Part shown: piece by piece, positions 3,281 through 29,983 of the stretch
Position numbering within the stretch: position 1 is the stretch's first letter
Layout of the letters: each line of letters opens with the position of its first letter
Assembly (NCBI RefSeq): GCF_900112415.1
Contig: NZ_FOLV01000009.1
Coordinates: forward strand, 1 to 64,000
Reading direction: 5' to 3'
Source: Bacillus sp. 491mf
GTDB lineage: Bacteria > Bacillota > Bacilli > Bacillales > Bacillaceae_G
DNA: 64,000 bases
Made by a program: the position numbers and the translations under genes
Notes under the pieces: generated by a model
The model's input: only the letters and a program-made list of their open reading frames with translations
Databases searched by the model: none
What the model was told of the DNA's origin: nothing

Positions 3281-3844
3281 AGAAAACGCAAAATTGTTGT
3301 ATTAATTGGATTTGCATTAGATACACAGGAAGTCACATATATTAAACAAATTTTAAAACTAACTGATAGAGATTATGGACTAATAGTAAGTATAACGGGA
3401 ATAGGTGCATTAGTAGGAGCGTTTGTTGCAGCAGTTTGTTCTAAAAAAACTAACCTAAAGTTATATATCGGTGGTGGAATGTTCCTAACATCTATAGGGT
3501 ATATCTTCTTTTATTCATCAATTAATTTTATCACTGCAACTTTCTCATTTGCTTTCTTGGGTTTCTTTATGGCATTTGCAAATACAGGGTATACAACTTT
3601 TTTTCAAAATAATGTTCCAGTAAAAATCATGGGTAGATTCGGCAGTCTAGCTAGTATGGTCGAAGGTATAATCCAAATAACTTTTACTCTTCTTCTAGGT
3701 TTTTTGGCAAAGTGGTTCTCGTTACAGCTAATTTGTCTTATCTTTTCTATTGTTGGTACTTTATTTGCTGCAATTCTTTTTGTAACAATCTTAATACCTT
3801 CAAAAACCAATTATTTTAAAGAAAGTTCAAATCTTAATCACTAA
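3281..3844 (+). pseudogene. MFS transporter remnant (C-terminal half)
   Basis: The frame is open from 3281 to TAA at 3842-3844, but its first good ATG is at 3479, in the middle of a membrane segment. The translation (VVLIGFALDTQEV.., then GLIVSITGIGALVGAFVAAV, later NNVPVKIMGRFGSLASM) is the C-terminal half of a DHA-type MFS exporter, with about six hydrophobic helices. The N-terminal half is absent: upstream sequence is A/T-rich with stops in all frames. It is a truncated pseudogene. Confidence 0.7.
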
Positions 3845-3918: not shown

Positions 3919-5040
3919 CTAACGGTGTAGTATATTTTGTAAAAAGTTATTCCCCCTCTTTTTATATAACCTTACATATTCAAAGAAAAGGTGCCTCTCC
4001 GTACTATTTGATCCCAATTCGAAAGAGAGTTCTATTTTGGAAGGCAGAATCCAATTGTATATTGCTATTAGAAGATGTTTAATTGTATCAAAATCTAAAA
4101 AGTTAAAGTAAGCAAAATTTATGTATTGCTTAAATGATTGAAATTCTCTGTCTCTGATTGTGTTGTATTCCCACCATAGATTTCCTTTTCTTTTGAGTGG
4201 GAGCTGTTTTATATTTTCTAATTGTGGAAACAAAGTATAGACAATCGCTAAAGTTCTAATGAGTCTTTTTAAAGTTTTGTGAGAAGCTGCTTCTTTAAAT
4301 AAAACAGCATAATCAAGTTTGTCATGCAACATGTATATCATTTGAATTATATCTATAAAATACTTTAAAGAATTCAAATTATGCTTCCAACCATGAAGGC
4401 AAATCATGTAAAAGGTATGATAATCAGATAGTTCTTTTATATGATTATAAGGTTTTAGAGATGTTGCTTGATTCCAAAATTCTTCTATTTGAAGATTAGA
4501 TGTGTTTTCTTTTAATAAATCCCAATGAATCTCAACCGTTAGCGGAATTGAAGATCCAGGTAATGCCTTACTAAAGCTACAATGGAAATGAGAAGGGATA
4601 TATTCTTCTTCAACTGTAAATCCTAGTGATTTTATACAATCCATCGCTTTGTTTAGATCGGGTGCTTTGATTAACAAATCAATATCTGATGTAGATCTAG
4701 CGCCTATGTGACCAAAATATTTTTCAGCAAAGACTACACCTTTAAGTGGGATAACATCAATTTCAATTTCCTCAAATTTGTTTAGAACTTGTTCAGTTTG
4801 GTTTTTAATAAATAAATTTAGGTATAATGTTTCGTTGTATTTTTGGGTCAACTGTTCTTGAAAAAAAAGGGGTGTTTGATCAAGCATCCCTTTTTGTTTT
4901 AATAAATAATAAATTTGGGAGTGAATTTCAAAAAATTCAATATCCTCCATCGCTTGTTTATAAAATTCGTTGTCAGTTGGTACAGGAATTTGTGGATCAT
5001 ATAATGTTTGTATCAAATGAACAATCAAGGGTTTCAGCAC
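3919..5040 (-). CDS. Nucleotidyltransferase family protein of the RiPP island (NTP_transf_5 type)
   Basis: 373 residues. The segment VIPLKGVVFAEKYFGHIGARSTSDIDLLI carries the G-x(n)-S-D-x-D-L motif of pol-beta-like nucleotidyltransferases, with the DID aspartates as metal ligands. It is followed by the EIHWDL element usual in the uncharacterised family found beside lasso-peptide kinases and ABC exporters. The start is the GTG at 5040, the first possible codon after an in-frame stop. Its ribosome site is poor, so it is probably co-translated with the ABC gene 25 bases upstream. It may nucleotidylate the peptide or a partner; that is inference from context. Confidence 0.8.
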   Translation of the reverse strand: MLKPLIVHLIQTLYDPQIPVPTDNEFYKQAMEDIEFFEIHSQIYYLLKQKGMLDQTPLFFQEQLTQKYNETLYLNLFIKNQTEQVLNKFEEIEIDVIPLKGVVFAEKYFGHIGARSTSDIDLLIKAPDLNKAMDCIKSLGFTVEEEYIPSHFHCSFSKALPGSSIPLTVEIHWDLLKENTSNLQIEEFWNQATSLKPYNHIKELSDYHTFYMICLHGWKHNLNSLKYFIDIIQMIYMLHDKLDYAVLFKEAASHKTLKRLIRTLAIVYTLFPQLENIKQLPLKRKGNLWWEYNTIRDREFQSFKQYINFAYFNFLDFDTIKHLLIAIYNWILPSKIELSFELGSNSTERHLFFEYVRLYKKRGNNFLQNILHR

Positions 5041-5065
5041 CTTTCTGCATTAAATCAATATCAAT

Positions 5066-6892
5066 TTAAGCATTTATAGTTATCGTATTGTTTTCTTTTG
5101 ATTGTTGAGAAACTTGCATGTAATATAAGTTACGATACAATCCGTCTTTTTCTAAGAGCTCCTCATGGCATCCTGTTTGTACAATTTTTCCCTCATCCAT
5201 CACGATAATGCAATCTGCATTTTGAATCGTTGATAATCGGTGTGCGATGACAAGCGTTGTTCGATTCATCATTAATCGATCTAAAGCAGTTTGTACTTGT
5301 TGTTCAGTTTGGCTGTCTAGTGCTGATGTCGCCTCATCTAACAAGAGAATAGGTACATCTTTTAATAGGGCTCTTGCTATGGCAATTCGCTGTTTTTGTC
5401 CCCCAGACAGTTTTATACCTCTTTCACCAATTTCTGTGTCATATCCATTCGGCAAAGATAGAATAAACTCATTGATATTAGCAGCCTTTGCAGCATCAAT
5501 CATTTCCTCCTCAGTAATAGAAGTACCTGGGCGTGCTAATAGAAGGTTTTCCCTTATTGTTCCTCCGAAAAGGAAGGTTTCCTGAGGAACATGAGCAATC
5601 GAACTTCTTAGTTCAGAAGGGGAGAGGCTTTCAATTGCCATATCATCAATCAAAATGCAGCCAGATTGCGGTTTATAAAAACCTTGCAGTAAATTAAATA
5701 AAGTTGTTTTCCCTGCACCGCTTAAACCAACAATTGCAGTTACTTTTCCTGCGTGAATTTGTAAATTAAAATGATTCAATACTTTTTGTTTTTCATTGTA
5801 GCTAAACGTGATGTTTTGGAACTTGATTGATTTTACCACCGGTTTAGCTGGGGAATAGGTTGCTACAGTTGTAGATTCAGTTGGTAATTCCAAAATCTTT
5901 AGGAGTCTTTCTACAGCTGTAATCGATCTTTGAAACCCTGCCCATTGACTTGCTAGTCCTGTTAACGGATATACTAAATGATCTACTAGATTGATGAAGG
6001 TCAATAAGGAACCTACTGACATGACCCCATCTGAAACAAAATATGCCCCTAAACAGAGACTAATTAGAAATGTGAAGGAGCTAACAGCTTGGCCACCTGC
6101 ATTAAACCATCCACCTAGTTTTGTGTTTTCTAATTCTAGAGAATATAGCTGTTGATTTTTCTTGGTGAATTTTTTATATAGAAATGTTTCCATTGTAAAT
6201 GAACGAATCACAGAGAAACCAAGAAAAGTTTCGTTAAGCAGGTTATTTATATTACCTAATAGACTATGTATCAATCGGCTGTTTCGCCGAAGTAATAGAC
6301 CGAAAACAAGTCCTGATATTGCAGCAATAGGTGCGACTAATACACTGAGTAAAGATAATTTCCAGTTAAGGTAAATTAAATAAATGAAAACAGTAACATA
6401 GATAAGGGGAAGTCTAATCAGGTCAATAAGACTTCTTCCTATTACTCCATTAATATTATGAATATCATTGGTAAAGTGAGATAATAATTCTCCTGAACGG
6501 AGGTTAGAAATATCTTTGGAAGGGAGAAGTAATACATGTTTAAATAACTGTTTTTTTAAATCTCTTTTCACACCGTTTGTTGCAACAGATTCGAAGTAAG
6601 TATCAAAAAACCCTGATGTAATACTTATGAATGTTAGGATACACGCTAGCGGAACTAGCCACTTAATACGCTGAAAGTCGCTTTTTATTGCTGCGTCCAA
6701 AATGTTTCCAAAGAGCCAAGCGAACGCTAAAGTAAGGAAGATATCAATAAAAAGTAAGAAAAGGAGAGCCATATACGCCGTGCGATGCTTCATAATATAA
6801 GGTCTTAATAAGGAAAAGGTTTTTTTCATGTCTCCCATTGTAAAGTACTGTTTCATTGTATCTAGTATTGCCTGATTTTTTCGTCCAATCAT
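5066..6892 (-). CDS. ABC transporter, fused permease/ATPase (peptide exporter)
   Basis: 608 residues from the ATG at 6892 (GGGG seven bases upstream); upstream codons have no ribosome site. About six membrane helices occupy the N-terminal 300 residues (ABC_membrane). The ATPase has Walker A GLSGAGKTT, signature LSGGQKQRIAIARAL, Walker B ILLLDEATS and the His switch IAHRLST. No N-terminal C39 peptidase domain is present, so it cannot trim the leader itself. It lies between the precursor and the nucleotidyltransferase, as in paeninodin-type lasso clusters, and probably exports the modified peptide or gives immunity. Confidence 0.92.
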   Translation of the reverse strand: MIGRKNQAILDTMKQYFTMGDMKKTFSLLRPYIMKHRTAYMALLFLLFIDIFLTLAFAWLFGNILDAAIKSDFQRIKWLVPLACILTFISITSGFFDTYFESVATNGVKRDLKKQLFKHVLLLPSKDISNLRSGELLSHFTNDIHNINGVIGRSLIDLIRLPLIYVTVFIYLIYLNWKLSLLSVLVAPIAAISGLVFGLLLRRNSRLIHSLLGNINNLLNETFLGFSVIRSFTMETFLYKKFTKKNQQLYSLELENTKLGGWFNAGGQAVSSFTFLISLCLGAYFVSDGVMSVGSLLTFINLVDHLVYPLTGLASQWAGFQRSITAVERLLKILELPTESTTVATYSPAKPVVKSIKFQNITFSYNEKQKVLNHFNLQIHAGKVTAIVGLSGAGKTTLFNLLQGFYKPQSGCILIDDMAIESLSPSELRSSIAHVPQETFLFGGTIRENLLLARPGTSITEEEMIDAAKAANINEFILSLPNGYDTEIGERGIKLSGGQKQRIAIARALLKDVPILLLDEATSALDSQTEQQVQTALDRLMMNRTTLVIAHRLSTIQNADCIIVMDEGKIVQTGCHEELLEKDGLYRNLYYMQVSQQSKENNTITINA

Positions 6893-7024
6893 ATGAACCC
6901 CTAATTCTATATTTTTTATAATAATGTATTTTCTAGCATATATATGAAAGCTGATAGTGATTGTGCCAGAGAAATTCAATTGTAAAGATAACAATGAACA
7001 CTCTGGCAGACATGTACTTATTAT

Positions 7025-7243
7025 TTACTTGCGTTTTCCACCACCATGGCCGCCGCCATTCCCTTTATGTGGACCTGTGTATGGAGGGTTTGGATAATGT
7101 ATTCCGCCATTTCCATGTCCTGGGTGATCCAAGTTACCATGCCCTTTGTTCCAACTTTGGGCAGTTTCAAAGCGAATAGGCTGACTGCTTAATACCATAG
7201 GACGGGTATAGGCTTTTTGTTCATTTCGGTTCTCTGTATTCAT
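7025..7243 (-). CDS. RiPP precursor peptide, Gly/His/Pro/Asn-rich core
   Basis: 72 residues from ATG 7243, which has AGGAGG eight bases upstream; the longer reading frame upstream has no ribosome site. The leader (residues 1-30) contains YTRPMV at 12-17, the YxxPx(L/V) motif that PqqD-like domains recognise in lasso precursors, and then RFETAQSW. Residues 31-72 hold 14 Gly, 6 His, 5 Pro and 5 Asn, have no Cys, and end GGGKRK. There is no Asp/Glu at positions 7-9 of a core starting after the usual penultimate Thr (Thr27), so a standard lasso ring is not obvious. A metal-binding or unfolded exported peptide is possible. Confidence 0.75.
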   Translation of the reverse strand: MNTENRNEQKAYTRPMVLSSQPIRFETAQSWNKGHGNLDHPGHGNGGIHYPNPPYTGPHKGNGGGHGGGKRK

Positions 7244-7261
7244 CGTTTTACCTCCTAATAT

Positions 7262-7311
7262 AAAGTGTAGTGCTCGTCGTTCATTATAAAGAACGGACAC
7301 TTTAAAGTAAA
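7262..7311 (-). promoter_or_regulatory. SigA-type promoter of the precursor with nested palindrome
   Basis: On the minus strand, TTTACT (7306-7311) and a perfect TATAAT (7283-7288) are 17 bases apart, about 40 bases before the precursor ATG. The -10 region is bracketed by CGTTC (7278-7282) and GAACG (7291-7295). An outer pair, AAAGTGT (7262-7268) and ACACTTT (7297-7303), encloses both. This nested symmetry covering the promoter suggests a repressor site. Confidence 0.75.
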
Positions 7312-7731
7312 GATACATAAAATAATATTTTCCTAGTTTGTCTCAAATTAATAAGTAGTTATCTCTCACCTTAAGATTGTAAGGAATCAAAGAAAATATG
7401 TGGGGATAGCTGCTACTTGCATGTCCTAATTTGGCATACTTACTATCAACAGGATGAATAACCGACTACTGATGGAAATTTCCCTTTATACTTGTATTTC
7501 ATTACTACAAAATAGAGAATTTATTTTTGGTGTTAGACTTAAAACGGAATTTTGAATCCTATAAAAATATATTTACAAACAGAATATCGGTGTTTAAAAT
7601 AAAAATAAATTCTTTATATAGAACATAATAGAGAAAATTGTTTATATTAACGAATTGTACGTGAGGTTTTATTAAAGGAACTAGAATTTTGTCACACGTA
7701 TAAACCAATCTGAAATATAGGAGTTCATGCT
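7312..7731. other. Divergent intergenic region of the RiPP island
   Basis: About 420 bases, very A/T-rich, between the precursor promoter and the kinase gene. No open frame or recognisable RNA was found. It must hold the promoter of the kinase-PqqD-peptidase operon. Several TTGTTT/TATATT-like pairs exist, but none is clear enough to call. A TAGGAG ribosome site precedes the kinase ATG. Confidence 0.5.
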
Positions 7732-8526
7732 ATGGAAAATATATTCGTTCAAATAGGCGAACATACTGTTTCAATCTCTTCTACATCTAAAAAATTAATG
7801 AATTGGATAAAAATACATTTTCAAATTGTTGAAAGAAATCATGTTGCAAAGATTAACTCACTAAATTTATCCATTCATATTAAAGATAATTATGGAGTTC
7901 CTTTTGTAGATTATAATGTAGAAATCTGTTCCGATTCAGATAAGATTACATACCGACGTGCTGATTATCTTATAGATGTTAACAGTACATATAATGAAGC
8001 AACGGTTTCGGTTTATGATGAGCTAGCTTTAAAACATGCTTTACATAATCTATATAGCGCTTTTATCATCCATAATCGTTGGGGACTGCTAATTCATTCT
8101 TCTTGTGTGGATCATCACGGAGAAGCTTATCTATTTAGTGGTCAATCGGGTGCAGGTAAATCGACAGTTGCTAAGTTATCAGCCCCTAGACCACTTTTAT
8201 CTGATGAAGCCACTATTGTGAAAATAGATGAGAATGAAATTAAAGTGTTTGATTCTCCATTTCGAAGTGAACTAACGACATCTTATGGCAACCAATCTTG
8301 CCATCTTTCGTCAATTTACTTTTTGATTCAATCGTTGGATGTGAAGGCTTTACCAGTGAAAAAATCAGATGCTATGTTAGGGATAATGGATAAAATTTTT
8401 TATTGGCACCACGATTCCTTAGAAACTACTAAACTATTGGATATGTGTAAACAATTAGTAGAAAAAGTTCCGGTTTACAATATGTATTTTCAAAAAAATG
8501 ATAGCTTTTGGGAGTTGATATCATGA
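7732..8526 (+). CDS. HPr kinase-like peptide kinase
   Basis: 264 residues. The C-terminal half has the HprK fold signatures: Walker A GQSGAGKST (137-145) and the catalytic-site-like segment LLSDEATIV (D158). The N-terminal half has no similarity to HprK's own regulatory domain. Such short HprK relatives in lasso clusters, for example the paeninodin and Thermobacillus kinases, phosphorylate the precursor's side chains. Here the precursor has Ser only at 19, 20 and 30 and few Thr, so the target residue is uncertain. The TGA overlaps the ATG of the PqqD gene. Confidence 0.85.
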   Translation: MENIFVQIGEHTVSISSTSKKLMNWIKIHFQIVERNHVAKINSLNLSIHIKDNYGVPFVDYNVEICSDSDKITYRRADYLIDVNSTYNEATVSVYDELALKHALHNLYSAFIIHNRWGLLIHSSCVDHHGEAYLFSGQSGAGKSTVAKLSAPRPLLSDEATIVKIDENEIKVFDSPFRSELTTSYGNQSCHLSSIYFLIQSLDVKALPVKKSDAMLGIMDKIFYWHHDSLETTKLLDMCKQLVEKVPVYNMYFQKNDSFWELIS

Positions 8527-8795
8527 GTCTAAAATGTGAATGTGCAAAAAACATAAATATTGTAGAAATTGATAATGAGTGGATTATTATGGATACAGAA
8601 AATTTTACGGTAACAAAAGTAAACGCTATTGGCGCTTATATTTTAGAGGAAGTAAGAGGGCAAAGAGAGCTTGAAGACATCATTTGTAATATTGCAGATA
8701 ACTACGATGTTGATTTAAATACAGCAAGATCAGATGTTTTGATTTTTCTAGAAGAATTAAAAGGGATAGGTTTAATCAAAAATGGAAGAGCGTAG
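8523..8795 (+). CDS. PqqD-family RiPP recognition element (lasso B1-like)
   Basis: 90 residues starting at ATG 8523, which overlaps the kinase stop (ATGA) with TTGGGAG upstream. The sequence (VTKVNAIGAYILEEVRGQRELEDIICNIADNYDVDLNTARSDVLIFLEEL) is a typical PqqD winged-helix domain with the helix-turn pattern of stand-alone B1 proteins. These bind the YxxP motif of the leader and present the precursor to enzymes. A matching YTRP motif is present in the precursor at 7025-7243. It overlaps the peptidase gene by 14 bases. Confidence 0.88.
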   Translation: MSLKCECAKNINIVEIDNEWIIMDTENFTVTKVNAIGAYILEEVRGQRELEDIICNIADNYDVDLNTARSDVLIFLEELKGIGLIKNGRA

Positions 8796-9237
8796 CCTTC
8801 CAGTTTCAGGGATAAAATATTTGCTTCAAAAACAAGGATGGGTTGATCTTCCTTCTGTTGGAGTCAGTATGTATCCTTTGATTCAGGAAGGAGATATTTG
8901 TAGATTCATCCCTTTAGGGAGTGAGGAAGTAAGAAAAGGTGAAGTTGTACTATTTGTATCGAATCAAGGACAGTTAATAGGGCACAGATATTTTGATAAC
9001 TTTGTTGAAAATGGTGTGCTTTACTATGTATGTAAGGGAGATACGAACTTTTCTGTTGATTCTCCAGTGAAAAAATCTCAATTAATAGGGAAATTAGCTT
9101 ATATTAAAAAAGAGAAATTTCAATTGAATTCTAAAGATTTCATAGCTCGATTATGGGGAGGTATTGTTTTAACCTTCCCTAGTTTGCCAAGGGGGTGTAA
9201 AAAATATCTTGATTTGCGGACAAGATTACGAAAATGA
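8782..9237 (+). CDS. S24/S26-family peptidase (SipW/ER-type signal peptidase fold)
   Basis: 151 residues. GVSMYPLI gives the signal-peptidase box with Ser29, followed by EGD at 36-38 and GHRYFD with His68. This is a Ser/His arrangement like SipW and ER-type signal peptidases rather than Ser/Lys. No N-terminal membrane anchor is evident, so it may act in the cytoplasm. It is the third gene of a tight operon and is the only peptidase in the island, so it is a candidate for leader removal. That role is inferred. Confidence 0.8.
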   Translation: MEERSLPVSGIKYLLQKQGWVDLPSVGVSMYPLIQEGDICRFIPLGSEEVRKGEVVLFVSNQGQLIGHRYFDNFVENGVLYYVCKGDTNFSVDSPVKKSQLIGKLAYIKKEKFQLNSKDFIARLWGGIVLTFPSLPRGCKKYLDLRTRLRK

Positions 9238-9239
9238 AG

Positions 9240-9275
9240 CAAGTAGTAAGTTCACTATAATAGACTTACTACTTG
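9240..9275 (+). terminator. 12-bp hairpin after the peptidase gene
   Basis: CAAGTAGTAAGT (9240-9251) pairs perfectly with 9264-9275 around a 12-base loop, directly after the stop codon. No clear T-run follows, so termination may be weak. Bases 9276-9538 are A/T-rich with no recognisable gene; I looked there for a B2-type protease remnant and found none. Confidence 0.55.
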
Positions 9276-9538
9276 AGAAAAAATATTTAAAAACTTTGTC
9301 CCTATATTGACATAGTAAAGGTGAAATGAAAATTTTATTTTGTTGGAGTTCCTTTTATAGAACAAAAAATAGCTATATAATAAAAAATGGATAGTAATAT
9401 TAATTTATAACATTTAATTGGTAATTTACTAAAGAATAAACTTTCGTTCTTTAAAGAGAATGCGGATAACGAAACACAATGCAGGAATTTAACCATATAA
9501 TAGGCTTTTGCTTACTTGTTGCAAAACGGGAGGGAACA

Positions 9539-9763
9539 ATGAGTGCTATAACAGGGATTGTATATTTTAATTATGAGCCTATATCGATCGAGCATGGTAC
9601 AAGATTAATAAAGGATTTGTAACAATATCCTGCTGATGATGTTCAAACATGGCACAAAGGTAACGTCTTCCTTGGTTGTCACGCACAATGGATTACACCA
9701 GAGTCCATTGGTGAACAATTGCCTTTTTATGATTACGAAAGACAATTAGCGATTACTACTTAA
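9539..9763 (+). pseudogene. Lasso-peptide cyclase (asparagine-synthase-like) N-terminal remnant
   Basis: GGGAGGGAAC precedes ATG 9539. The frame reads MSAITGIVYFNYEPISIEHGT.., has an in-frame TAA at 9620-9622 (a likely CAA-to-TAA change), then continues as YPADDVQTWHKGNVF and PESIGEQLPFYDYERQLAIT. This is the N-terminal glutaminase-like domain of asparagine-synthase-related lasso cyclases, which normally run to over 500 residues. It breaks off near 9757, where sequence of an unrelated gene begins. Both the nonsense codon and the deletion make it dead. It shows the island descended from a lasso-type cluster. Confidence 0.82.
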
Positions 9764-10015
9764 CTTCTTGTGGAGTCGCCATTTTTAAGTGATTGCATTC
9801 TAAAACTCCCGATAATTCTTCTAAATTAACACGTCCGCGACCTACAGAAACAATCACCGCAAAAAAATCTTTTTCTGACTTGATCACTAATGTTGCATCT
9901 CAATTCCGAAATAAACTGAACCTTCTTGGGCGGTACGTATTTGTTTTTCATGATGAATAATTTAAATGGAACTCCTTGTTCTTGCAAACTCATTCTTAAA
10001 TTATTCAGGGGCAAG
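9762..10015 (-). pseudogene. YbaK/EbsC-type aminoacyl-tRNA deacylase remnant
   Basis: On the minus strand, pieces in shifting frames read MSLQEQGVPFKLF, HHEKQIRTAQEGSVYFGIE, then VIKSEKDFFAVIVSVGRGRVNLEELSGVLE and KMATPQEV. These match the N-terminal half of YbaK/ProX-type trans-editing deacylases. At least two frameshifts and the loss of the C-terminal half make it a pseudogene. The break point abuts the cyclase remnant, so one deletion probably removed the ends of both genes. Confidence 0.65.
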
Positions 10016-21071: not shown

Positions 21072-21836
21072 ATGATAGATAAAGAATTGCAGATTGTGGA
21101 CCATTTAGAGGAATTGCGCAAACGGATTATTATATCAGCTGTTGCATTTGTCGTTTTTTTTATTGTTGGGTTTATGTTTGCCACTGATATTTATAAATGG
21201 TTTGCAAAGGGGATAGATATGAAACTATCGGTACTCGGACCAAGTGATATATTATGGGTGTATTTTATGCTTGCGACGGTGGTTGCAATTGCAGGAACAA
21301 TCCCTGTCATTGCAATGCAGATATGGTTGTTTGTACGTCCTGCGCTGCGGCTGAAGGAGAGAAAGGCTACGCTTACGTATGTACCAGCACTCTTTTTCTT
21401 ATTTATCATCGGACTTGGGTTTGGTTATTTTGTTATATTTCCTATGATTCTTTCGTTTTTGCTTCATCTGGGTCAGGATATGTTTGTGGCTCAATTTACA
21501 GCGGAGAAATATTTTCAATTTCTGATGAATGTGACGTTGCCGTTTGGGGTTTTATTCGAGCTTCCAGTCGTAGTTATGTTTTTAACTTCGCTCGGTATTT
21601 TAAACCCTTATGTATTATCAACCATTCGGAAGTATGCCTATTTTGTTCTGGCTGTAATTGCTGTTTTCATTACGCCGCCAGATTTCGTGTCAGATTTTAT
21701 CGTAACAATCCCGTTATTCGTGTTGTATGAAATCAGTATTTCTCTTTCTAAGTTTGTTTTTCGAAAGCAATTGAAACGCAGACAGGAAGAAGAGAAAGAA
21801 TGGACTGTTTATGAGCAAGGGGACGCTATCAAATAG
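21072..21836 (+). CDS. tatC: Twin-arginine translocase TatC
   Basis: 254 residues with six membrane helices. The N-terminus has VDHLEELRKRII, the conserved TatC motif that contacts the twin-arginine signal, and the first periplasmic loop and the KYFQFLMNVTLPFGVLFELPVV region are conserved. AGGGGAAGAGG precedes ATG 21072. It forms the signal-receptor of the translocase. A 135-bp gap with a possible TTACAT/TATTAT promoter separates it from the hydrogenase small subunit. Confidence 0.96.
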   Translation: MIDKELQIVDHLEELRKRIIISAVAFVVFFIVGFMFATDIYKWFAKGIDMKLSVLGPSDILWVYFMLATVVAIAGTIPVIAMQIWLFVRPALRLKERKATLTYVPALFFLFIIGLGFGYFVIFPMILSFLLHLGQDMFVAQFTAEKYFQFLMNVTLPFGVLFELPVVVMFLTSLGILNPYVLSTIRKYAYFVLAVIAVFITPPDFVSDFIVTIPLFVLYEISISLSKFVFRKQLKRRQEEEKEWTVYEQGDAIK

Positions 21837-21971
21837 TTATGAAAAGTGATGAAAGAGTTTTTGGTAAACAACTCTTCCATATCAGGATGAAAATGTAGTT
21901 CATATATTACATTTATCTTGAATTTCAAAGTATTATCTACTTGTTCCGTGGAAAATGGAGGGGGTTAGTAA

Positions 21972-23045
21972 ATGGAAAAGCAGAAAACAATCTATGAAAC
22001 TGCGATGAATAATGGGGTTACCCGAAGAGATTTTTTAAAAATGTGCACCGCACTGGCTGCGGCGATTGGTCTCGATTTCTCAAAAACTGATAAAGTTGTA
22101 AAGGCGATGGAGACGAGTACAAGAGTTCCTGTAGTATGGCTGCAATTCCAAGATTGTACAGGCTGTTCAGAGTCGTTTATCCGTTCTTCTCAACCTAAGG
22201 TTGAAAGCGTTTTATTTGATATGATTTCACTCGAATACACAGAAGTTCTTTCGGCAGCATCTGGATTTCAAATTGAAGCAGCGATGGAACAGGTGCTGAA
22301 AAAATATAAAGGAAAGTATGTTCTTGCTGTTGAAGGAAGCATTCCCCAAGAGGGCTTTTTAAACATAGGGGGAAAATCAGGGAAAGATACTTTTATTGAA
22401 ATGGCTACGAACGCACAAGCAGTCATTGCCTATGGATCTTGCTCTGCATGGGGTGGCATTCCTGCTGCTTATCCGAATCCAACTGGTGCAAAACCAATTA
22501 CGAGCTTTCAAACGAGCACACCTACTATTCTCGTTCCTGGTTGCCCGCCGATTGCAGAAGTAATGACTGGTGTGATAGCTCACATTATAACATTCGGAAA
22601 ATTGCCGGAATTAGATCATCTCGGACGTCCAAAGGCATTTTATCGCCATCGTATCCATGATAAATGTAATCGCCGTGCCTATTTTGATGCAGGCTTGTTT
22701 GTAGAGTCCTTCGATGATGAAGGAGCAAAGCAAGGGTATTGCTTATATAAGGTTGGTTGCAAAGGGCCAACAACTTATAATTCCTGTGCTGAAATGCGCT
22801 GGAATGGCGGGGTTAGCTATCCGATTCAATCGGGAAATCCGTGTATTGGCTGTTCGGAAAAGGGATTCTGGGATAATGGTCCTTTCTACACAAGAAGAGC
22901 GAAAATTCCTGGCTCACAAACAACGATTAATCCGGATACGATTGGATTAGCGGCCGTTGGTGTTACGACAGCAGGTATTGCTGTTCATGCAGCAGGAACT
23001 GTAATTAAGAAAAAAATCGATGATAAACGAGGGGAAGACGAATGA
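21972..23045 (+). CDS. hyaA: [NiFe] hydrogenase small subunit (Tat-exported)
   Basis: 357 residues. A twin-arginine signal RRDFLKMCTALAAAIGL (about 18-34) directs export. CTGCSESF, GSCSAWGGIP and PGCPP supply proximal [4Fe-4S] ligands; RHRIHDKC and the later Cys supply distal and medial clusters; a C-terminal helix (TIGLAAVGVTTAGIAV) anchors it to the membrane. The two extra cysteines of the oxygen-tolerant six-Cys type are absent: CTGC and WGG instead of CTCC and WGC. It overlaps hyaB by ATGA. It passes electrons to the cytochrome b encoded downstream. Confidence 0.95.
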   Translation: MEKQKTIYETAMNNGVTRRDFLKMCTALAAAIGLDFSKTDKVVKAMETSTRVPVVWLQFQDCTGCSESFIRSSQPKVESVLFDMISLEYTEVLSAASGFQIEAAMEQVLKKYKGKYVLAVEGSIPQEGFLNIGGKSGKDTFIEMATNAQAVIAYGSCSAWGGIPAAYPNPTGAKPITSFQTSTPTILVPGCPPIAEVMTGVIAHIITFGKLPELDHLGRPKAFYRHRIHDKCNRRAYFDAGLFVESFDDEGAKQGYCLYKVGCKGPTTYNSCAEMRWNGGVSYPIQSGNPCIGCSEKGFWDNGPFYTRRAKIPGSQTTINPDTIGLAAVGVTTAGIAVHAAGTVIKKKIDDKRGEDE

Positions 23046-24766
23046 GCGAGCGTATAGTAGTAGATCCAGTTACGAGAATTGAAGGTCATCTTCGCGTTGA
23101 GGTAGATATCGATGATAGGGGAATGATTAAGGATGCATTTAGTTCAGGGACAGCGGTTCGAGGACTGGAGTTAATCGTTCGAGACCGTGATCCTCGTGAC
23201 GTATGGGCGTACATTCAACGTATTTGCGGTGTTTGTACATCGACTCATGCTCTTGCGTCACTTCGGGCTGTTGAGGATGCATTAGAAATTAAAATTCCGA
23301 GAAATGCTCATTTGATACGGGACATTATGAATATGGTAATCTTCTTTCATGACCATGTCGTTCACTTCTATCATTTGCATGCGTTAGACTGGGTCGATGT
23401 AGTAAGTGCGTTACATGCAAATCCTTCTGAAACATCACGAATTGCACAATCGATTTCAAGTTGGCCAAAATCTTCCCCCGGCTATTTTGCAGATGTGCAA
23501 AACAAAGTAAAGAAACTTGTAGATAGCGGACAGCTTGGCATATTTGCGAATGGATATTGGGGACATAATGCATATAAACTTCCGCCAGAAGTGAACTTAT
23601 TAGCAGTTGCTCACTATCTAGAAGCATTGGACTGGCAAAAAGAAGTTGTAAAAGTACAAACTATTTTTGGAGGCAAAAATCCGCATCCTCACTATGTAGT
23701 AGGCGGTATGGCAACTCCACTTGATATTAATAGTGACAATGGTATTCATGCAGAGCGATTAATGCATGTATCTCAAATCATTGACCAAGCTCGTGAATTC
23801 ATAAGTCAAGTATATGTGCCTGACGTAATTGCTATCGGTTCTTACTATAAAGATTGGACATATGGCGGCGGGTTAGATAACTATTTATGCTATGGTGATT
23901 TCTCTACGCGCAGCATATATGATACGAAATCATATCGATTCCCAAGAGGAATTATTTTAAATGGAAACATGAATGAAGTACATGATATAGATCTCAAAGA
24001 TCCTGAACAGGTGAAAGAGTTTATTGATCATTCTTGGTATACATATGATGGCAAGGAAGGCGGTGGGATTGGAAAGCATCCGTTTGAAGGAGAAACGTCT
24101 CTTCATTATACAGGACCGAAAGCACCGTATAAGAATCTGGATACGAATAAGCAATATAGTTGGCTGAAAACACCGCGCTGGAAGAATCAGCCGATGGAAA
24201 CAGGTCCGCTTGCTCGGATGATGGTTGGTTATGCAGCAGGAGATAAAGAGATTATAAGCTTGATGGACGATACGCTGAAAAAGCTAGGTCTTCCAATTAC
24301 TGCAATGAAATCAGCACTTGGTCGTACAGTGGCACGCGCGCTCGAAACGATTCTTCTATCGAATTGGATTCGACATGATATGGATGAATTACTTCATAAT
24401 GTGAAGAATGGAAACCAAGTCACATTTGACCGTACAAAATGGGAGCCAAGTACTTGGCCGAAGAAAACAAAAGGAGTTGGCTGGGTTGAGGCGCCGCGCG
24501 GAGCACTAGGGCACTGGATTGATATTGAAAATGGAAAAACGAAAAATTATCAAGCTGTTGTTCCATCTACTTGGAATGCATCGCCTCGTGATCATAACAA
24601 TAATCTCGGAGCTTATGAAGCGGCATTGAAAGGAACACCGATGCTGAATAAGGAACAGCCATTAGAAATTTTAAGGATTATTCATTCCTTTGATCCTTGT
24701 CTTGCTTGTGCAGTGCATTTAACAGATTTAGAGTCTAATAAAACAACTGAAATTCGATTAGGTTAG
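23042..24766 (+). CDS. hyaB: [NiFe] hydrogenase large subunit
   Basis: 574 residues. RICGVCTSTHA near residue 60 and DPCLACAVH near the C-terminus are the L1 and L2 motifs that bind the Ni-Fe centre. The 15 residues after the final His (starting LTDLES) are the expected extension removed by the maturation protease encoded two genes later. It splits H2 outside the membrane. It folds with the small subunit and is carried across by the latter's Tat signal. Start by ATGA overlap with the small subunit. Confidence 0.96.
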   Translation: MSERIVVDPVTRIEGHLRVEVDIDDRGMIKDAFSSGTAVRGLELIVRDRDPRDVWAYIQRICGVCTSTHALASLRAVEDALEIKIPRNAHLIRDIMNMVIFFHDHVVHFYHLHALDWVDVVSALHANPSETSRIAQSISSWPKSSPGYFADVQNKVKKLVDSGQLGIFANGYWGHNAYKLPPEVNLLAVAHYLEALDWQKEVVKVQTIFGGKNPHPHYVVGGMATPLDINSDNGIHAERLMHVSQIIDQAREFISQVYVPDVIAIGSYYKDWTYGGGLDNYLCYGDFSTRSIYDTKSYRFPRGIILNGNMNEVHDIDLKDPEQVKEFIDHSWYTYDGKEGGGIGKHPFEGETSLHYTGPKAPYKNLDTNKQYSWLKTPRWKNQPMETGPLARMMVGYAAGDKEIISLMDDTLKKLGLPITAMKSALGRTVARALETILLSNWIRHDMDELLHNVKNGNQVTFDRTKWEPSTWPKKTKGVGWVEAPRGALGHWIDIENGKTKNYQAVVPSTWNASPRDHNNNLGAYEAALKGTPMLNKEQPLEILRIIHSFDPCLACAVHLTDLESNKTTEIRLG

Positions 24767-24779
24767 GAGGAGACACATT

Positions 24780-25574
24780 ATGTCAGACCTCATACCAACA
24801 ACACATAACACCAATACGATTGTTCCAGAAAAAAACAGCGAGGTGACGCTTCATCCAGAACGTCCAATTCAATATAAGAAAACAAAAGATGTCGTCAAAG
24901 TTTATGTATGGCAATTACCGGTTCGAGTGTTTCATTGGATTAACGTAGTGGCAATTATTTTGCTTATGATAACAGGAATTTATATTGGAAAACCATTTGT
25001 TAGTTCAAGTGTACAAGAGGAAGCATATTACTCCTATCTCATGGGATGGGCGAGATATATACACTTTTTTGCAGCATTTCTTTTCACAATCAATCTTCTT
25101 TATCGATTGTTCTGGGCGTTTATAGGAAATAAATTTGCCACATCGAACCCATTTCGCTTGGTGTTTTGGAAAGAAGTATTAGAAACAATTAAATTTTACT
25201 TATTCTTAAAAAATAAAAAGCCGCATTACATTGGCCACAATCCGTTGGCACAGCTTAGTTATTGGATTTTTATCGGTCTTGGCTCTTGGGTAATGATGCT
25301 AACAGGCTATTATATGTATTTTGAGCCGCAGCCAGAATCGTTTTGGGCTAAGCTATTTGTTTGGGTTCCGATTCTGTTTGGCGGAGATAGCTATACGATT
25401 CGTTCCTGGCACCACTTAGTGGCATGGGCATTTATGTTATTTACAGTAATTCATGTCTATATGGCAGTTCGTGATGACTATATGGAACGGAATGGCACCA
25501 TTTCGTCGATATTTACAGGCTACAAGACTGAACCAAAAAAATTAGTTGGTGATAAGAATGATGAATCAAAATAA
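24780..25574 (+). CDS. hyaC: Hydrogenase cytochrome b subunit
   Basis: 264 residues with four to five membrane helices. Candidate haem ligands are His in RVFHWINVV, YIHFFAAF and the pair in RSWHHLVAWAFMLFTVIHVYMAV. It takes electrons from the small subunit and reduces the quinone pool, making this an uptake enzyme. GGAGGAGAC lies before ATG 24780. The extra N-terminal 30 residues are hydrophilic. The protease gene overlaps its last codons. Confidence 0.94.
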   Translation: MSDLIPTTHNTNTIVPEKNSEVTLHPERPIQYKKTKDVVKVYVWQLPVRVFHWINVVAIILLMITGIYIGKPFVSSSVQEEAYYSYLMGWARYIHFFAAFLFTINLLYRLFWAFIGNKFATSNPFRLVFWKEVLETIKFYLFLKNKKPHYIGHNPLAQLSYWIFIGLGSWVMMLTGYYMYFEPQPESFWAKLFVWVPILFGGDSYTIRSWHHLVAWAFMLFTVIHVYMAVRDDYMERNGTISSIFTGYKTEPKKLVGDKNDESK

Positions 25575-26046
25575 GAATGCGAAAATCACGATACTTGGAA
25601 TTGGTAACACCCTCTTCACAGACGAGGGTGTTGGTATTCATTTATTACCGCTGCTTGAAGAAGCGTATAAGGATGATAAACAAATTGAGATTATAGAGGG
25701 ATTAACGGATGGAATGAAGCTTCTAGGTCCGGTTGAGGAAGCGGAAAATCTTATTATTATTGATGCGATTAATGCAGGTGTAGAAGGCGGAACTATTCTT
25801 TCATTAGAAGGGGATGAAATTCCTGCTTATTTTGGTATAAAGATGTCCGTTCATCAAATGGGCTTCCAGGAAGTGTTATTTGCAGCGAAATTCAGAGAGC
25901 GCTATCCGAAAAAGATTATTATGTTTGGAATGCAGCCTAGTTCATTAGAGCTTGGTGTAGAACTAACGGAAACAAACCAGGCAAAACTAGGGGACCTAGC
26001 GGAAGCGGTTATGAATCAAGTAAATCGTTGGAGACATAGATCATGA
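25558..26046 (+). CDS. hyaD: Hydrogenase maturation endopeptidase
   Basis: 162 residues from ATG 25558 (or the adjacent ATG 25561), overlapping hyaC by 17 bases; a TTG at 25546 is less likely. GIGNTLFTDEGVG is the family's N-terminal motif, and Glu there, Asp in IIDAIN and His in VHQMG are the nickel ligands of the HybD/HoxM family. It cuts the C-terminal extension of the large subunit after Ni insertion. It overlaps the next gene by ATGA. Confidence 0.94.
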   Translation: MMNQNKNAKITILGIGNTLFTDEGVGIHLLPLLEEAYKDDKQIEIIEGLTDGMKLLGPVEEAENLIIIDAINAGVEGGTILSLEGDEIPAYFGIKMSVHQMGFQEVLFAAKFRERYPKKIIMFGMQPSSLELGVELTETNQAKLGDLAEAVMNQVNRWRHRS

Positions 26047-26471
26047 ATCGTCTCGATTTCTTAAAAGAGGTGACAGGAAGCATATTTCAAACCATGAAAT
26101 ATGTGTATGAGCCCTTTTTAAAGGATGATTTAGAAAAAATGGAAGAAGCGGCAGATCGAGCACTTGGAATTACATGGATACCTGTGATAAAAGTTGATGA
26201 AATGGTTGTCGGGCCGGAAGTTCGCTTTGCTTTTGGCAAATCGATTATCGTTTTCTCGCATGAAGAAAAGCTTCATGCGATTAGCGGTATTTGTCCGATT
26301 TGTTCCAATCTCATTCAAGTTCGTATGTATGATCATCGGGCGACATGTACGATTTGTGACAAGGACTACGATTTTAACACGCTGGGCGGAGAATTATCTG
26401 TCCAAAGGTTACAGATAAAAAGGAAGGACCAAATGTATGTTGTTGGTTTTACAGACAACAGTAGAAGGTGA
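26043..26471 (+). CDS. Four-cysteine Rieske-like hydrogenase accessory protein
   Basis: 142 residues, fused by overlap between hyaD and hypA. The C-terminal 60 residues look like a Rieske domain (HAISGICPICSNLIQ ... ATCTICDKDYDFNTLGG), but both histidine ligands are Cys, giving CxxC-x(n)-CxxC. That favours a rubredoxin-like iron site or a zinc ribbon. The N-terminal 80 residues are helical and acidic with no known motif. It may carry electrons or protect the small subunit during maturation, as HoxR/HupI rubredoxins do elsewhere. The exact family is not recognised. Confidence 0.7.
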   Translation: MNRLDFLKEVTGSIFQTMKYVYEPFLKDDLEKMEEAADRALGITWIPVIKVDEMVVGPEVRFAFGKSIIVFSHEEKLHAISGICPICSNLIQVRMYDHRATCTICDKDYDFNTLGGELSVQRLQIKRKDQMYVVGFTDNSRR

Positions 26472-26476
26472 TCGTG

Positions 26477-26833
26477 ATGCATGAAATGTCATTGATGGGA
26501 GATATTTTGCAGCTTGTTCAAGAGGATGCCGCAAAAAGAAATGTTGTACAAATAAAGAAAATTGAATTAATTGTAGGAGAAATTAGCAATGCGATGCCAA
26601 CTGCATTGCAGATGGCCTTCGAAATTTTTCGTGATCAAAATCTGCATCTCTTTAGCGGCGCAGCGCAATTAATTATTCATACAGAGGAAGCAAAGGCAGA
26701 ATGTGTTATATGCGGGTTAACGTATCATCCTACTCAGAAAATCGCATTGTGCCCGAACTGTAACATTCCATCTGGCAAGATATTAGCAGGGGAAACATTT
26801 CAAATCTTATCATACGAGGGGAACGATGATTGA
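26477..26833 (+). CDS. hypA: Hydrogenase nickel incorporation protein HypA
   Basis: 118 residues. ATG 26477 gives MHEMSL, with the N-terminal His2 that binds nickel; the GTG at 26468 would bury it, so I reject that start. The zinc site is CVICG...CPNC. HypA hands Ni to the large subunit together with HypB, whose ATG overlaps the HypA stop (ATGA-type overlap TGATG). Confidence 0.95.
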   Translation: MHEMSLMGDILQLVQEDAAKRNVVQIKKIELIVGEISNAMPTALQMAFEIFRDQNLHLFSGAAQLIIHTEEAKAECVICGLTYHPTQKIALCPNCNIPSGKILAGETFQILSYEGNDD

Positions 26834-27489
26834 TGAATATAACGTTACGAACGGATGTATTAACGAACAATAATAAAGCGGCTGAATTTAACCGCGACCT
26901 TTTTGAAAAAACAAATACACTTGTGATTAATTTAATGAGTTCTCCTGGAGCTGGTAAAACGACGGTGTTAGAGGAAACGGTAAAGGCGTTATCCGGATCT
27001 TATCGTATTGCTGTTATTGAAGGAGACTTAGCAACGGAGCGAGATGCTAATCGTATCCGCGCAATGGGAGCAAAGGCTGTCCAAATTAACACTTATGGCG
27101 GCTGTCATTTGGATGCACGAATGGTTGCAGCAAGCCTTGGCGAACTGGATTTAGATGAGATTGATGTATTATTTATTGAGAATGTAGGCAACCTTGTCTG
27201 TCCATCTGGATATGATTTAGGACAGAACCATAAAGTTGCGGTTCTGAGCGTTCCTGAAGGAAATGATAAGATTCCGAAATATCCGCAAATGTTTATACGA
27301 ACGGAGCTAGTGCTTCTTAACAAAATTGATTTACTTCCTTATCTTGATTTTAATGTGGAGGAAGCGAAGAAGGATTTAATGGAGATTAACCCAAATTCAA
27401 CCCTTATTCCTCTTTCAGCAAGATCAGAAATCGGACTGGAAGAATGGTATGAATGGATTCAAGAGGCGTATAAAAAATGTACGCAGTAA
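26833..27489 (+). CDS. hypB: Hydrogenase nickel incorporation GTPase HypB
   Basis: 218 residues. Walker A is SSPGAGKTT and the G-domain motifs are NKID and EGDLATERD. It has CH ligands in GGCHLDARM. It lacks the N-terminal poly-His tract of some HypB proteins, so nickel storage may rest with the His-rich transporter upstream. It drives GTP-dependent nickel insertion with HypA. It overlaps hypF by 13 bases. Confidence 0.96.
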   Translation: MNITLRTDVLTNNNKAAEFNRDLFEKTNTLVINLMSSPGAGKTTVLEETVKALSGSYRIAVIEGDLATERDANRIRAMGAKAVQINTYGGCHLDARMVAASLGELDLDEIDVLFIENVGNLVCPSGYDLGQNHKVAVLSVPEGNDKIPKYPQMFIRTELVLLNKIDLLPYLDFNVEEAKKDLMEINPNSTLIPLSARSEIGLEEWYEWIQEAYKKCTQ

Positions 27490-29756
27490 AAGTTAGTATC
27501 CGCGGGAGGGTACAAGGGGTTGGATTTCGTCCATTTGTATACCAGCTTGCCCACCAATATCATCTAGCGGGAACGGTACAAAACAATATGGACGGCGTAA
27601 GAATTACGGCACAAGGAGCGGAGGCGGATGTGCAGCAGTTTTTGTTAGAGCTGCAAAGCAAAGCACCCCGTCTTTCGCGTATTCATAACATAACTGTAGT
27701 AAATATAGAACCAACCGATAGAGCCGAGTTTATCATTATTGATAGCGAGCGTCAGGGAACTTCATCTCTTGTCATTCCAATTGATTCTGCAGTATGTGAT
27801 GATTGTTTACAAGAGATGAATGATAAGGACAATTTCCGTTATGAATATCCGTTTATCAATTGTACGCAGTGTGGACCACGATATACCATTATTGAAGAGC
27901 TGCCCTATGACCGGCCGTACACGGCGATGAAGAACTTTGCGATGTGCACAGATTGCCAAAGAGAATATGAAGATCCAACGAACCGGCGCCATCATGCTCA
28001 ACCTATCGCTTGTCCTGCATGTGGTCCGAAAGTTACACTTTTGGATCAGCATGGACATAAACTTGAAACGAAGCAACCGATTCAACAAGCCGTGCGGTTG
28101 ATACAAGAGGGACATATACTGGCGATAAAGGGGCTCGGCGGCTATCATCTTTGCTGCGATGCAACAAATGAACAGGCTGTGGCACTTTTGCGAAAACGAA
28201 AAGAACGTCCGGCACGGCCACTTGCAGTTATGGCTGCCTCTGTTCTTGCAATTGATACTTTTGCTTATGTGAATGAGGCAGAAAGAAATTTGTTGAAAAG
28301 TCCAGAAGCACCGATTGTAATTGTAAAGAAAAAAGAAGGTAAACTTGCAGGGAATGTAGCGCCAAACATGACGACAATTGGCGTCATGCTTCCCTATACA
28401 CCGCTTCATCATCTACTCTTTAAGTATAATGAGAATGGTTGCTTTGTCATGACGAGTGCCAATCCTTCCGGGATGCCGATTCTCTATAAAGATAATGAAG
28501 CGCTGACTTACTTAGACGGAATCGCTGATTACTTTCTTGTTCATGATCGAGACATCCTTCACCCTGTTGATGATTCAGTAGTGCAAGTAAATAACGGTCG
28601 CTTAGATTTTTTTCGAAGAGCTAGGGGCTATGTTCCTGACCCTTTTGCGGCAAGTCATGATGTATCTGGAATGGTTGCCTTTGGCGGACAACAGAAAACA
28701 ACTTTTACAATTGGAAGAAATGAGCAAATTTTTCTCGGACCGCACATTGGTGATTTGGAAAATGTGGAAACAATGCGTCATTACTGGCAGGAGTATAACC
28801 ATTTAATGAAATGGATGGATACAAAGCAGGATATCGCAGTTATCGATGCGCATCCAGACTATGTAACGAGACAGTTTATTGAAGGATTTCATACAGTGCT
28901 AGAAGTGCAGCATCATCATGCCCATATGGCCGCATGTATGGTGGAACACCATCTTACAGGAAAAGCTTATGGAGTTATCCTTGATGGAACCGGATACGGA
29001 CTTGACGGAAACATTTGGGGATTTGAAATTTTTTATGGAGATGCTAGTAGTGCAAAAAGACTTGCTCATCTGCAATATACACCTCTTCCTGGCGGGGAAG
29101 TGTGTATTCGTGAACCATGGCGAAATGCGGTCGCTATGCTGCTATTCTTGCTTGGGGAAGAAGGAGAAGGTTTAGCAATTCTTCTATTTCCAGATAAAGA
29201 GAAAGAAATTCATATTTTAAAGAAAATGATAGAAAACCATATAAATATTATTCAAGCTGGTACATGCGGTCGCTTGTTTGATGCAGTTAGCGCGCTATGC
29301 GGGATTACAAAAATTGCGCGCTATGACGGAGAGGCGGCAATATTGCTCTCGGAATTAGTAGATGAAACATGCGTGTACGAGCCATATTCGTATGAATACA
29401 TAGAAGATGAGCTTGTTACAATTCAAATGAAAGCAATGATTAAAGAAATTGTGCGTGACGTTTTAGCAGGTGAAGAGGCAGCAAATATTAGCGGTCGCTT
29501 TCATGAAACGGTTGTCCAATCTATTCTTACCGCAATAGAAAGGATAGCTAGTACACAACCTGAGCGAAGCAAAGTCGTCGTACTCGGCGGTGGTAGCTTA
29601 CACAATCGTTATTTGCGTAAACGATTACGAGAAGAATTAGTGAAACGAAAGTTTACCGTATATGTACCAGAACAAGTGCCGTGCAATGATGGCGCTTTAT
29701 CATATGGTCAACTGGCCGTTGCAGCGGCGAAAAGGAGGGCTCAGTCATGTGTGTAG
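27477..29756 (+). CDS. hypF: Carbamoyltransferase HypF
   Basis: 759 residues. Domains in order: acylphosphatase-like (RGRVQGVGFRPFVYQL, residues 9-24), two zinc fingers (CDDC..CTQCG, CTDC..CPACG), a YrdC-like domain and a Kae1-like domain with the VQHHHAHMAA metal-site motif. It makes the carbamoyl group that becomes CN- of the Fe centre, using carbamoyl phosphate and ATP, and passes it to HypE. Length is normal. It overlaps hypB and hypC. Confidence 0.96.
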   Translation: MYAVKVSIRGRVQGVGFRPFVYQLAHQYHLAGTVQNNMDGVRITAQGAEADVQQFLLELQSKAPRLSRIHNITVVNIEPTDRAEFIIIDSERQGTSSLVIPIDSAVCDDCLQEMNDKDNFRYEYPFINCTQCGPRYTIIEELPYDRPYTAMKNFAMCTDCQREYEDPTNRRHHAQPIACPACGPKVTLLDQHGHKLETKQPIQQAVRLIQEGHILAIKGLGGYHLCCDATNEQAVALLRKRKERPARPLAVMAASVLAIDTFAYVNEAERNLLKSPEAPIVIVKKKEGKLAGNVAPNMTTIGVMLPYTPLHHLLFKYNENGCFVMTSANPSGMPILYKDNEALTYLDGIADYFLVHDRDILHPVDDSVVQVNNGRLDFFRRARGYVPDPFAASHDVSGMVAFGGQQKTTFTIGRNEQIFLGPHIGDLENVETMRHYWQEYNHLMKWMDTKQDIAVIDAHPDYVTRQFIEGFHTVLEVQHHHAHMAACMVEHHLTGKAYGVILDGTGYGLDGNIWGFEIFYGDASSAKRLAHLQYTPLPGGEVCIREPWRNAVAMLLFLLGEEGEGLAILLFPDKEKEIHILKKMIENHINIIQAGTCGRLFDAVSALCGITKIARYDGEAAILLSELVDETCVYEPYSYEYIEDELVTIQMKAMIKEIVRDVLAGEEAANISGRFHETVVQSILTAIERIASTQPERSKVVVLGGGSLHNRYLRKRLREELVKRKFTVYVPEQVPCNDGALSYGQLAVAAAKRRAQSCV

Positions 29757-29983
29757 GAGTACCGGCGAAGGTTGTGAAAAAAATGGAATATACGGCGGTA
29801 GTTGATGTGATGGGATCACAAACGACCGTTGGTATTATTTTCGTCCCAGAAGTAGAAGAAGGGGAATTTGTTATTGTTCATGCAGGTCAAGCGATGAGTA
29901 TTGTCGATGAACAATATGCAAAAGATAGCGTGTTGGAATGGAGGAAGTTGGTCGATGCTCGAAATTCTGAAACAGTCGAATGA
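29747..29983 (+). CDS. hypC: Hydrogenase assembly chaperone HypC
   Basis: 78 residues. MCVGVPAKV has the essential N-terminal Cys2, and the IVHAGQAMSIVDE region matches the OB-fold HypC/HybG family. It carries the Fe(CN)2CO group with HypD to the large subunit. ATG lies inside the end of hypF with GGAGG nine bases upstream, and its end overlaps hypD. Confidence 0.95.
   Translation: MCVGVPAKVVKKMEYTAVVDVMGSQTTVGIIFVPEVEEGEFVIVHAGQAMSIVDEQYAKDSVLEWRKLVDARNSETVE

Follow-up and report, generated by a model that had tools for sequence, protein, structure and literature searches.

The 64,000-nucleotide stretch of Bacillus sp. 491mf analysed here (assembly GCF_900112415.1, contig NZ_FOLV01000009.1, positions 1 to 64,000; hereafter the window) carries, within positions 3919-9237, six genes that correspond to the core set of the linear polyphosphorylated peptides (LPPs), a family defined in May 2026 (PMC13381572). 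The main text of that paper gives the LPP core set as a precursor, an HprK-like kinase, a discrete recognition element (RRE) of the kind used for ribosomally synthesized and post-translationally modified peptides (RiPPs), a SipW-like peptidase, an exporter, and a nucleotidyltransferase, with no cyclase or B2 peptidase of its own, and treats the SipW-like peptidase and a YxxP leader as LPP traits. Paeninodin-type lasso clusters are described there as having a WxxP leader, a cyclase (C), a cysteine peptidase (B2), and a threaded product. In the window, the genes are organized as two divergent units, lppA-lppD-lppN leftward and lppK-lppB-lppS rightward, separated by a 488-nt intergenic region. 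With a probability of roughly 0.83, this arrangement can be taken to represent an intact LPP cluster in which each of the two units has a putative SinR-type operator.

Genes of the LPP locus and their conservation

The precursor gene lppA (7025..7243, minus strand) encodes a 72-aa Gly/His-rich YxxP peptide that resembles LppA of PDB 9x8z in its leader (7e-6). It consists of a 27-aa leader ending in FET and a 45-aa core that starts AQSWNKGHG and contains Ser3. The leader, YTRPMVLSSQPIRFETAQS, fits the LPP motif YxxPxVLxHQxIxFETxxS with one departure, H to S, which is common to the LPP locus of Bacillus sp. FJAT-14578 (represented twice in our material, as L057 and L098). Also on the minus strand are lppD (5066..6892, its start at 6892 being a choice guided by relatives), which encodes an MsbA-type ABC exporter with ABC_membrane and ABC_tran domains (75% identity to L098), and lppN (3919..5040), which encodes an NTP_transf_5 nucleotidyltransferase (PF14907, 1.1e-37; 64% identity to the L057/L098 copy). 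The plus-strand unit begins with lppK (7732..8526), encoding an HprK-like kinase that is 69% identical to that of L057 and keeps the P-loop; it overlaps by 4 bases with lppB (8523..8795), which encodes a discrete, PqqD-like RRE (PF05402, 7.3e-15) and in turn overlaps by 14 bases with lppS (8782..9237), encoding a SipW/archaeal-type S26 leader peptidase (TIGR02228, 51.7 bits, slightly below the cut-off of 51.85). Kinase, nucleotidyltransferase, and MsbA-like exporter are thus co-located, as the definition of an LPP cluster demands. Every part listed in the original prediction, which described a lasso-type island, was recovered at or near its position through Pfam/TIGRFAM matches and homology.

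The three proteins of the rightward unit can be placed with some precision. Of the 53 alignment columns with at least 90% conservation across 71 kinases (the window copy counted), LppK retains 52; Pfam Hpr_kinase_C scores only 0.09 against it, and the homology call depends on the LPP kinases. LppB matches the LppB of PDB 9x8z at 6.7e-8 and the lasso protein PbaB1 at 0.045, and reaches 32.7 bits with the Bacillus lasso RRE model NF033536 (cut-off 80), which scores 132 on the lasso RRE of L099. In an RRE tree made by a quick method from 95 columns and 78 rows, the window protein falls on the LPP side with L068 (SH-aLRT 96) and L072 (98), and eight lasso RREs form one separate side. Position 33 of the RRE alignment is Asn in all 70 non-lasso sequences and Gly in all eight lasso sequences, and position 70 is Asp in 58/70 and 1/8, respectively; the window protein has Asn and Asp. 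WgkC, a name that occurs in a paper on tryglysin, was a weak family match of the window RRE and was dropped. LppS has S29, F42, H68, and D93, each invariant in 67/67 aligned rows (the window counted) that remained of 78 tblastn places after length and duplicate filtering. In plasmid records, no relative of lppK was found, and lppS gave a single weak archaeal match; plasmid matches covered no more than 4% of the queries. Among 397 genomes of the order to which the L057 genome belongs, the best DNA match to the threonyl-tRNA synthetase gene reached 73%, a value that speaks neither for nor against a B. cereus-group origin.

Relatives were located with the leader-motif pattern in a collection of one genome per species, an earlier kinase scan of contigs having given no match. 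The pattern is present in 63 DNA stretches, all but one (a metagenome-assembled genome) from organisms with Bacillales-type names; these stretches are 8 kb long, with some motifs at a stretch edge, and 51 contain at least one of K, B, and S, 43 contain both K and S, and 8 have none of K, B, S, and N. The divergent layout is rare: lppA and lppK share a strand in 65 of 68 loci, the exceptions being L100 and the pair L057 and L098, which represent one place, and hence two genomes in all (some other genomes are likewise counted twice). The window, FJAT-14578, and L100 are all divergent, and the RRE tree sets exactly these genomes beside the window. In FJAT-14578, the proteins are 69% (K), 66% (B), 56% (S), 64% (N), and 75% (D) identical to those of the window, and both promoters have an operator of like type; it differs in its core type, with Cys replacing Ser at position 3. 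Compared with the LPP cluster of Paenibacillus alginolyticus DSM 5050 (lppAKBSDN; PMC13381572), the window has the same six genes, leader motif, and FET/AQS cleavage site, the same LppS catalytic residues and LppB key residues, and a core identical at 37 of 45 positions, whereas K, S, N, and D are merely 38-65% identical and the single operon of P. alginolyticus is replaced by two divergent units.

In the comparison with L098, each of the six LPP genes has an uninterrupted frame, and the ratio of non-synonymous to synonymous substitution rates (dN/dS) is 0.14 for K, 0.05 for D, 0.16 for B, and 0.20 for A, at high dS (1.3-2.9, with 2.9 for D); for N and S, dS is saturated. The earlier view that the genes are intact is upheld by these open frames and by the low ratios of kinase, RRE, precursor, and exporter. 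A dead or dying LPP cluster lying amid broken genes is quite improbable: gene fragments do occur in the flanks and the lasso neighbour, discussed below, is dead, but all six frames are open, the active-site residues are conserved, dN/dS is low, and the promoter and operators are conserved as well. In another species, the LppK relative of L074 (G386) has an in-frame TAG, a possible kinase lesion.

The most likely product of an intact LPP cluster of this kind is a linear phosphorylated peptide, as had been proposed for this locus; the LPP core set, defining motifs, and conserved residues all point to it. The P. alginolyticus study, which stopped short of the final natural product, demonstrated Ser3 phosphorylation and cleavage after FET by heterologous expression, and binding of LppA by LppB via YTRP was demonstrated with the P. 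alginolyticus proteins; the changes S3A, S3T, and S3Y abolish phosphorylation (PMC13381572). Five of 65 motif-matched LPP precursors (L005, L018, L044, L053, and L057) naturally have Cys in place of Ser at core position 3, a count made with a search pattern that itself permitted few residues at that site, and these may carry another modification. Core and enzymes appear to have had different histories, the window core being near that of P. alginolyticus and its nearest enzyme relative, L057, having a different core type; by eye, many LPP cores group into a few recurring types. Three genomes in which B2 was not found have the layout N-K-B-S-D (L078 of G004, L079 of G026, and L076 of G328), and in two of them the precursors (L007 of G004 and L049 of G026) have cores that are Lys-rich and very short, EASGKKEKKKKN and TQSGKRKKKDD.

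The cyclase remnant and its neighbourhood

Downstream of lppS lies a remnant of a paeninodin-type lasso cyclase, comprising the first ~80 codons (9539..9778, plus strand) and interrupted by an internal stop. Across 80 aa, it shares 75% identity with the intact L099 cyclase, its two pieces matching at 74% (27 codons) and 87% (46 codons). The proportions of non-synonymous and synonymous differences (pN and pS) are 0.116 and 0.46 in the first piece and 0.055 and 0.88 in the second; given the few codons, this is a hint that the gene was under selection until fairly recently. The window otherwise departs from a paeninodin-type lasso cluster: the cyclase is reduced to this remnant, the leader is YxxP, the RRE is of the Asn type, and nothing in the window matches the L099 B2 (best E 2.0), which bears out, for these 64 kb and no further, the earlier statement that B2 is lacking.

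The original prediction saw here a lasso machinery that had lost its cyclase and put its remaining enzymes, in a new manner, to work on a linear peptide. That a lasso cluster minus cyclase and B2 is reused in this way is highly improbable. A genuine cyclase scrap does begin ~300 nt 3′ of lppS, and homologues of the kinase, nucleotidyltransferase, and exporter are detectable in a lasso cluster; paeninodin-type clusters and the window have kinase, RRE, nucleotidyltransferase, and exporter types in common and often a SinR-type operator too. However, clusters that lack their own cyclase are already published as the LPP family, the SipW-like peptidase and YxxP leader of the window are among the traits of that family, and the production of a linear phosphopeptide by lasso-like enzymes is accordingly not new (PMC13381572). 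The window RRE groups with those of LPPs, has Asn33 where 8/8 lasso RREs have Gly, and stays far below the cut-off of the lasso model. Moreover, the genome of FJAT-14578 has both an LPP cluster and, 40 kb from it, an intact paeninodin-type lasso cluster with its own C, K, B1, B2, N, and D exporter. In the closest relative, the lasso cluster to which the remnant corresponds stands apart from the LPP cluster, and the remnant is therefore best regarded as foreign to the LPP pathway: a neighbouring lasso cluster has evidently decayed beside an intact LPP cluster, from whose pathway nothing appears to be missing.

Gene fragments stand on both sides of the island (1856-2440, 3300-3844, and 9756-9887). 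We take these to be the start of an IS3-type open reading frame (ORF) joined to a stretch of acetyltransferase, a partial major facilitator superfamily (MFS) transporter, and a YbaK-like piece, the last of which directly adjoins the cyclase remnant. Further along, at 21072-32068, is a run of genes presumably related to TatC and to [NiFe] hydrogenase and its maturation proteins.

Predicted SinR-type operators in the window and in related clusters

The biofilm repressor SinR recognizes the consensus GTTCTYT and binds an inverted pair of it most tightly (PMC3163267, PMC5733473); at kinB, the two inverted half-sites are 2 nt apart, and exopolysaccharide (EPS) operons are named SinR targets (PMC5733473). 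Alignment of the window intergenic region with those of two relatives brought out a conserved promoter and a palindrome, an element absent from the original prediction. The lppA promoter found by consensus scan, TTTACT-17-TATAAT (7283..7311, minus strand), keeps both hexamers in L098 and L100, and its -10 is enclosed by the SinR-type operator GTTCTTTATAATGAAC (7279..7294, minus strand), which is identical in L098 and reads GTTCTTTATAATGAAT in L100, with the last base changed. Compared with the inverted GTTCTYT pair, the left half is exact and the right half has one mismatch. The strong promoter claimed earlier is not distinguished by consensus scanning, which between 7000 and 9800 finds sites at the chance level (13 against 13.3 expected), but TTTACT-17-TATAAT is conserved in the two nearest relatives. 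For the lppKBS unit, the scan gives a candidate promoter, TTTACA-17-TAAAAT (7572..7600, plus strand), in a block conserved in three loci, followed by a SinR-type operator with two mismatches, ATTCTTTATATAGAAC (7609..7624, plus strand), at the place where L098 has GTTCTTTATAATGAAC. These putative sites resemble the Bacillus subtilis operators of eps and kinB in being inverted GTTCTYT pairs, with the 2-nt gap of kinB (PMC5733473), and differ in standing 5′ of RiPP genes. With up to three mismatches, GTTCTTTATAAAGAAC matches seven times in the window (0.85 expected; 0/100 shuffles reach seven), the two best matches being those of lppA (one mismatch) and lppK (two); the other five have three mismatches, and two of them stand before the cyclase remnant, as possible operators at 9348..9363 and 9446..9461 (both plus strand).

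The same element recurs across the family. Among 86 LPP precursors, 200-300 nt of upstream sequence was taken, leaving 74 regions after removal of near-copies; strict GTTC-N8-GAAC occurs in 37/74 (on average 0.2 and at most 2 after shuffling) and GTTCTYT in 48/74 (8.5 shuffled). The 52 sites concentrate at two distances from the start codon: 28 fall between -25 and -57, in most cases overlapping a TATAAT-like -10, and 23 between -80 and -170, where GTTCTTTAAAAAGAAC is frequent. By group, the strict repeat is found in 18/25 named Bacillaceae-type, 15/20 unnamed, and 3/28 Paenibacillaceae precursors, and in the window (1/1). The repeat is also found within 600 nt of 40/52 lasso cyclases (shuffled 0.3); over loci that include L139-L166, the cyclases that have it are 32/34 from LPP genomes and 8/18 from genomes without LppK (Fisher 1e-4, kinship ignored). 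In six whole genomes, strict GTTCTNTANNNNGAAC gives 47 distinct sites, 22 of them no more than 20 kb from LppK or B2 (0.7 expected), and the pattern totals 58 matches against 26 for its reversed control. The sister genome G031 has all eight of its strict sites in one LPP-EPS-lasso stretch, namely one at each LPP promoter, three 5′ of a Wzz-type exopolysaccharide gene, one 62 nt 5′ of a lasso cyclase, and two more nearby; sites near LppK or B2 number 5/8 in G125 and 4/8 in G041.

Several observations weigh against the operator assignment. In the window, three of the five three-mismatch matches lie elsewhere (33523, 39429, and 40567), for which reason the pair 5′ of the cyclase remnant provides only fair candidates; there are six copies of the strict repeat where base composition predicts 0.67, one of them within lppK and three at a great distance; the K-side operator has an altered half-site; and no SinR-like match was found in the 64 kb. 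The Spo0A core box TGTCGAA, present in 25/74 precursor upstream regions (2.5 expected for this 7-mer), was not found in the 300 nt upstream in the window, so that no claim is made for it there. Few Paenibacillaceae precursors have the operator, 3/28 in strict form and 6/28 at up to three mismatches, and lppA of P. alginolyticus, the only species examined experimentally, is without one (best 7 mismatches in 300 nt). Upstream regions of other ORFs in LPP loci have the repeat in 28/409 cases, above the shuffled rate; some of these ORFs may be lasso or EPS genes. Only 2/8 sites in G022, 2/8 in G308, and 1/7 in G172 are near LppK or B2, and in G031 the pattern matches 11 times against 10 for its reversed control; because these last counts are about equal, the argument concerns the position of the sites and not their number. 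The missing P. alginolyticus lppA operator and the three-mismatch matches beyond the island slightly lower confidence both in the reading of the window cluster given above and in the shared programme considered below.

A candidate regulator and a probable shared programme

From the form of the predicted operators, we infer that SinR is the protein that would act on them. A SinR homologue is encoded 5.5 kb from LppK in G031 (PDB 1b0n/3zkc, 1.4e-21) and is present in 32/34 LPP genomes, with 76 SinR-like genes across the 34; its distance from LppK is at most 40 kb in 27/34, against a random expectation of 1.4, and at most 10 kb in 13. In G172, 648 kb separate the LPP cluster from the nearest SinR homologue, which is found only 4 kb away from the lasso B2; the LPP cluster there is ~2.4 kb from a SipW/TasA-like pair, in which TasA is recognized by PF12389 and the partner, with a sub-threshold S26 match, is presumably SipW. 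With the LPP cluster as described here, it is somewhat doubtful that its operators are bound by another repressor of the same fold, such as an SlrR-like protein or an island paralogue. The number of SinR-like genes in these genomes, the operators 5′ of a local sinR-like gene in L134, and the weak match of the nearby homologue in L098 to the SlrR model (69 bits, cut-off 250) would suit such a repressor; the motif, however, is the SinR consensus itself, inverted and with the 2-nt gap of kinB, and it is carried by a Wzz-type EPS gene, EPS operons being named SinR targets.

Genomes with LPP clusters commonly have lasso clusters as well. B2 was found in 31/34 genomes reached via LPP loci (34 of the 63 loci having been submitted), and in an even draw of 397 genomes from one order it was found in 27/34 LPP genomes and 66/363 others (Fisher 5e-13, kinship ignored). 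These 34 LPP genomes, all of which have LppS in the LPP stretch, are the 39 with kinase matches minus G140, G314, G353, G361, and G375 (below 44% identity); in the last four of these, the kinase lies within 5 kb of B2 and is probably a lasso kinase, and G140 is without B2. With all 39 kept, the counts are 31/39 and 62/358. Lasso co-occurrence in more than half was reported in the LPP paper (PMC13381572).

In Bacillaceae-type genomes, a single SinR-governed matrix programme is likely to have both LPPs and paeninodin-type lasso peptides as its arms, so that matrix-forming cells would make the peptides and these would probably act in or on the biofilm, since the same operator stands 5′ of the LPP precursor, the lasso cyclase, the EPS operon (in one genome), and a sinR-like gene (in another). 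In growing cells, a SinR-family repressor would keep both LPP units down, and in matrix-forming or stationary cells, going by the operators and SinR biology, repression would be lifted. LppA would then be bound by LppB through YTRP, as by its P. alginolyticus homologue; the conserved residues suggest that LppK would phosphorylate Ser3 of the core and that LppS, presented by LppB, would cut after FET. LppN may attach a further group on the phosphate, and LppD would export the linear 45-residue peptide. The lpp, lasso, and EPS genes of P. alginolyticus rise jointly in stationary phase (PMC13381572), which supports the SinR idea only in part: its lasso cyclase has two repeats upstream (L101), whereas its lppA has none.

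The Discussion of PMC13381572 states the role of LPPs and paeninodin as unknown and raises a biofilm role as mere speculation; the terms SinR, Spo0A, and operator do not occur in its main text, and a literature search for SinR with lasso peptides, outside which subscription papers and preprints fell, returned a single paper whose title indicates another subject. The shared SinR-type operator makes the role of these peptides testable and suggests conditions, such as a sinR-minus background or matrix-inducing growth, in which their final products could be sought. It would also provide a reason why LPP and lasso clusters so often occur together.

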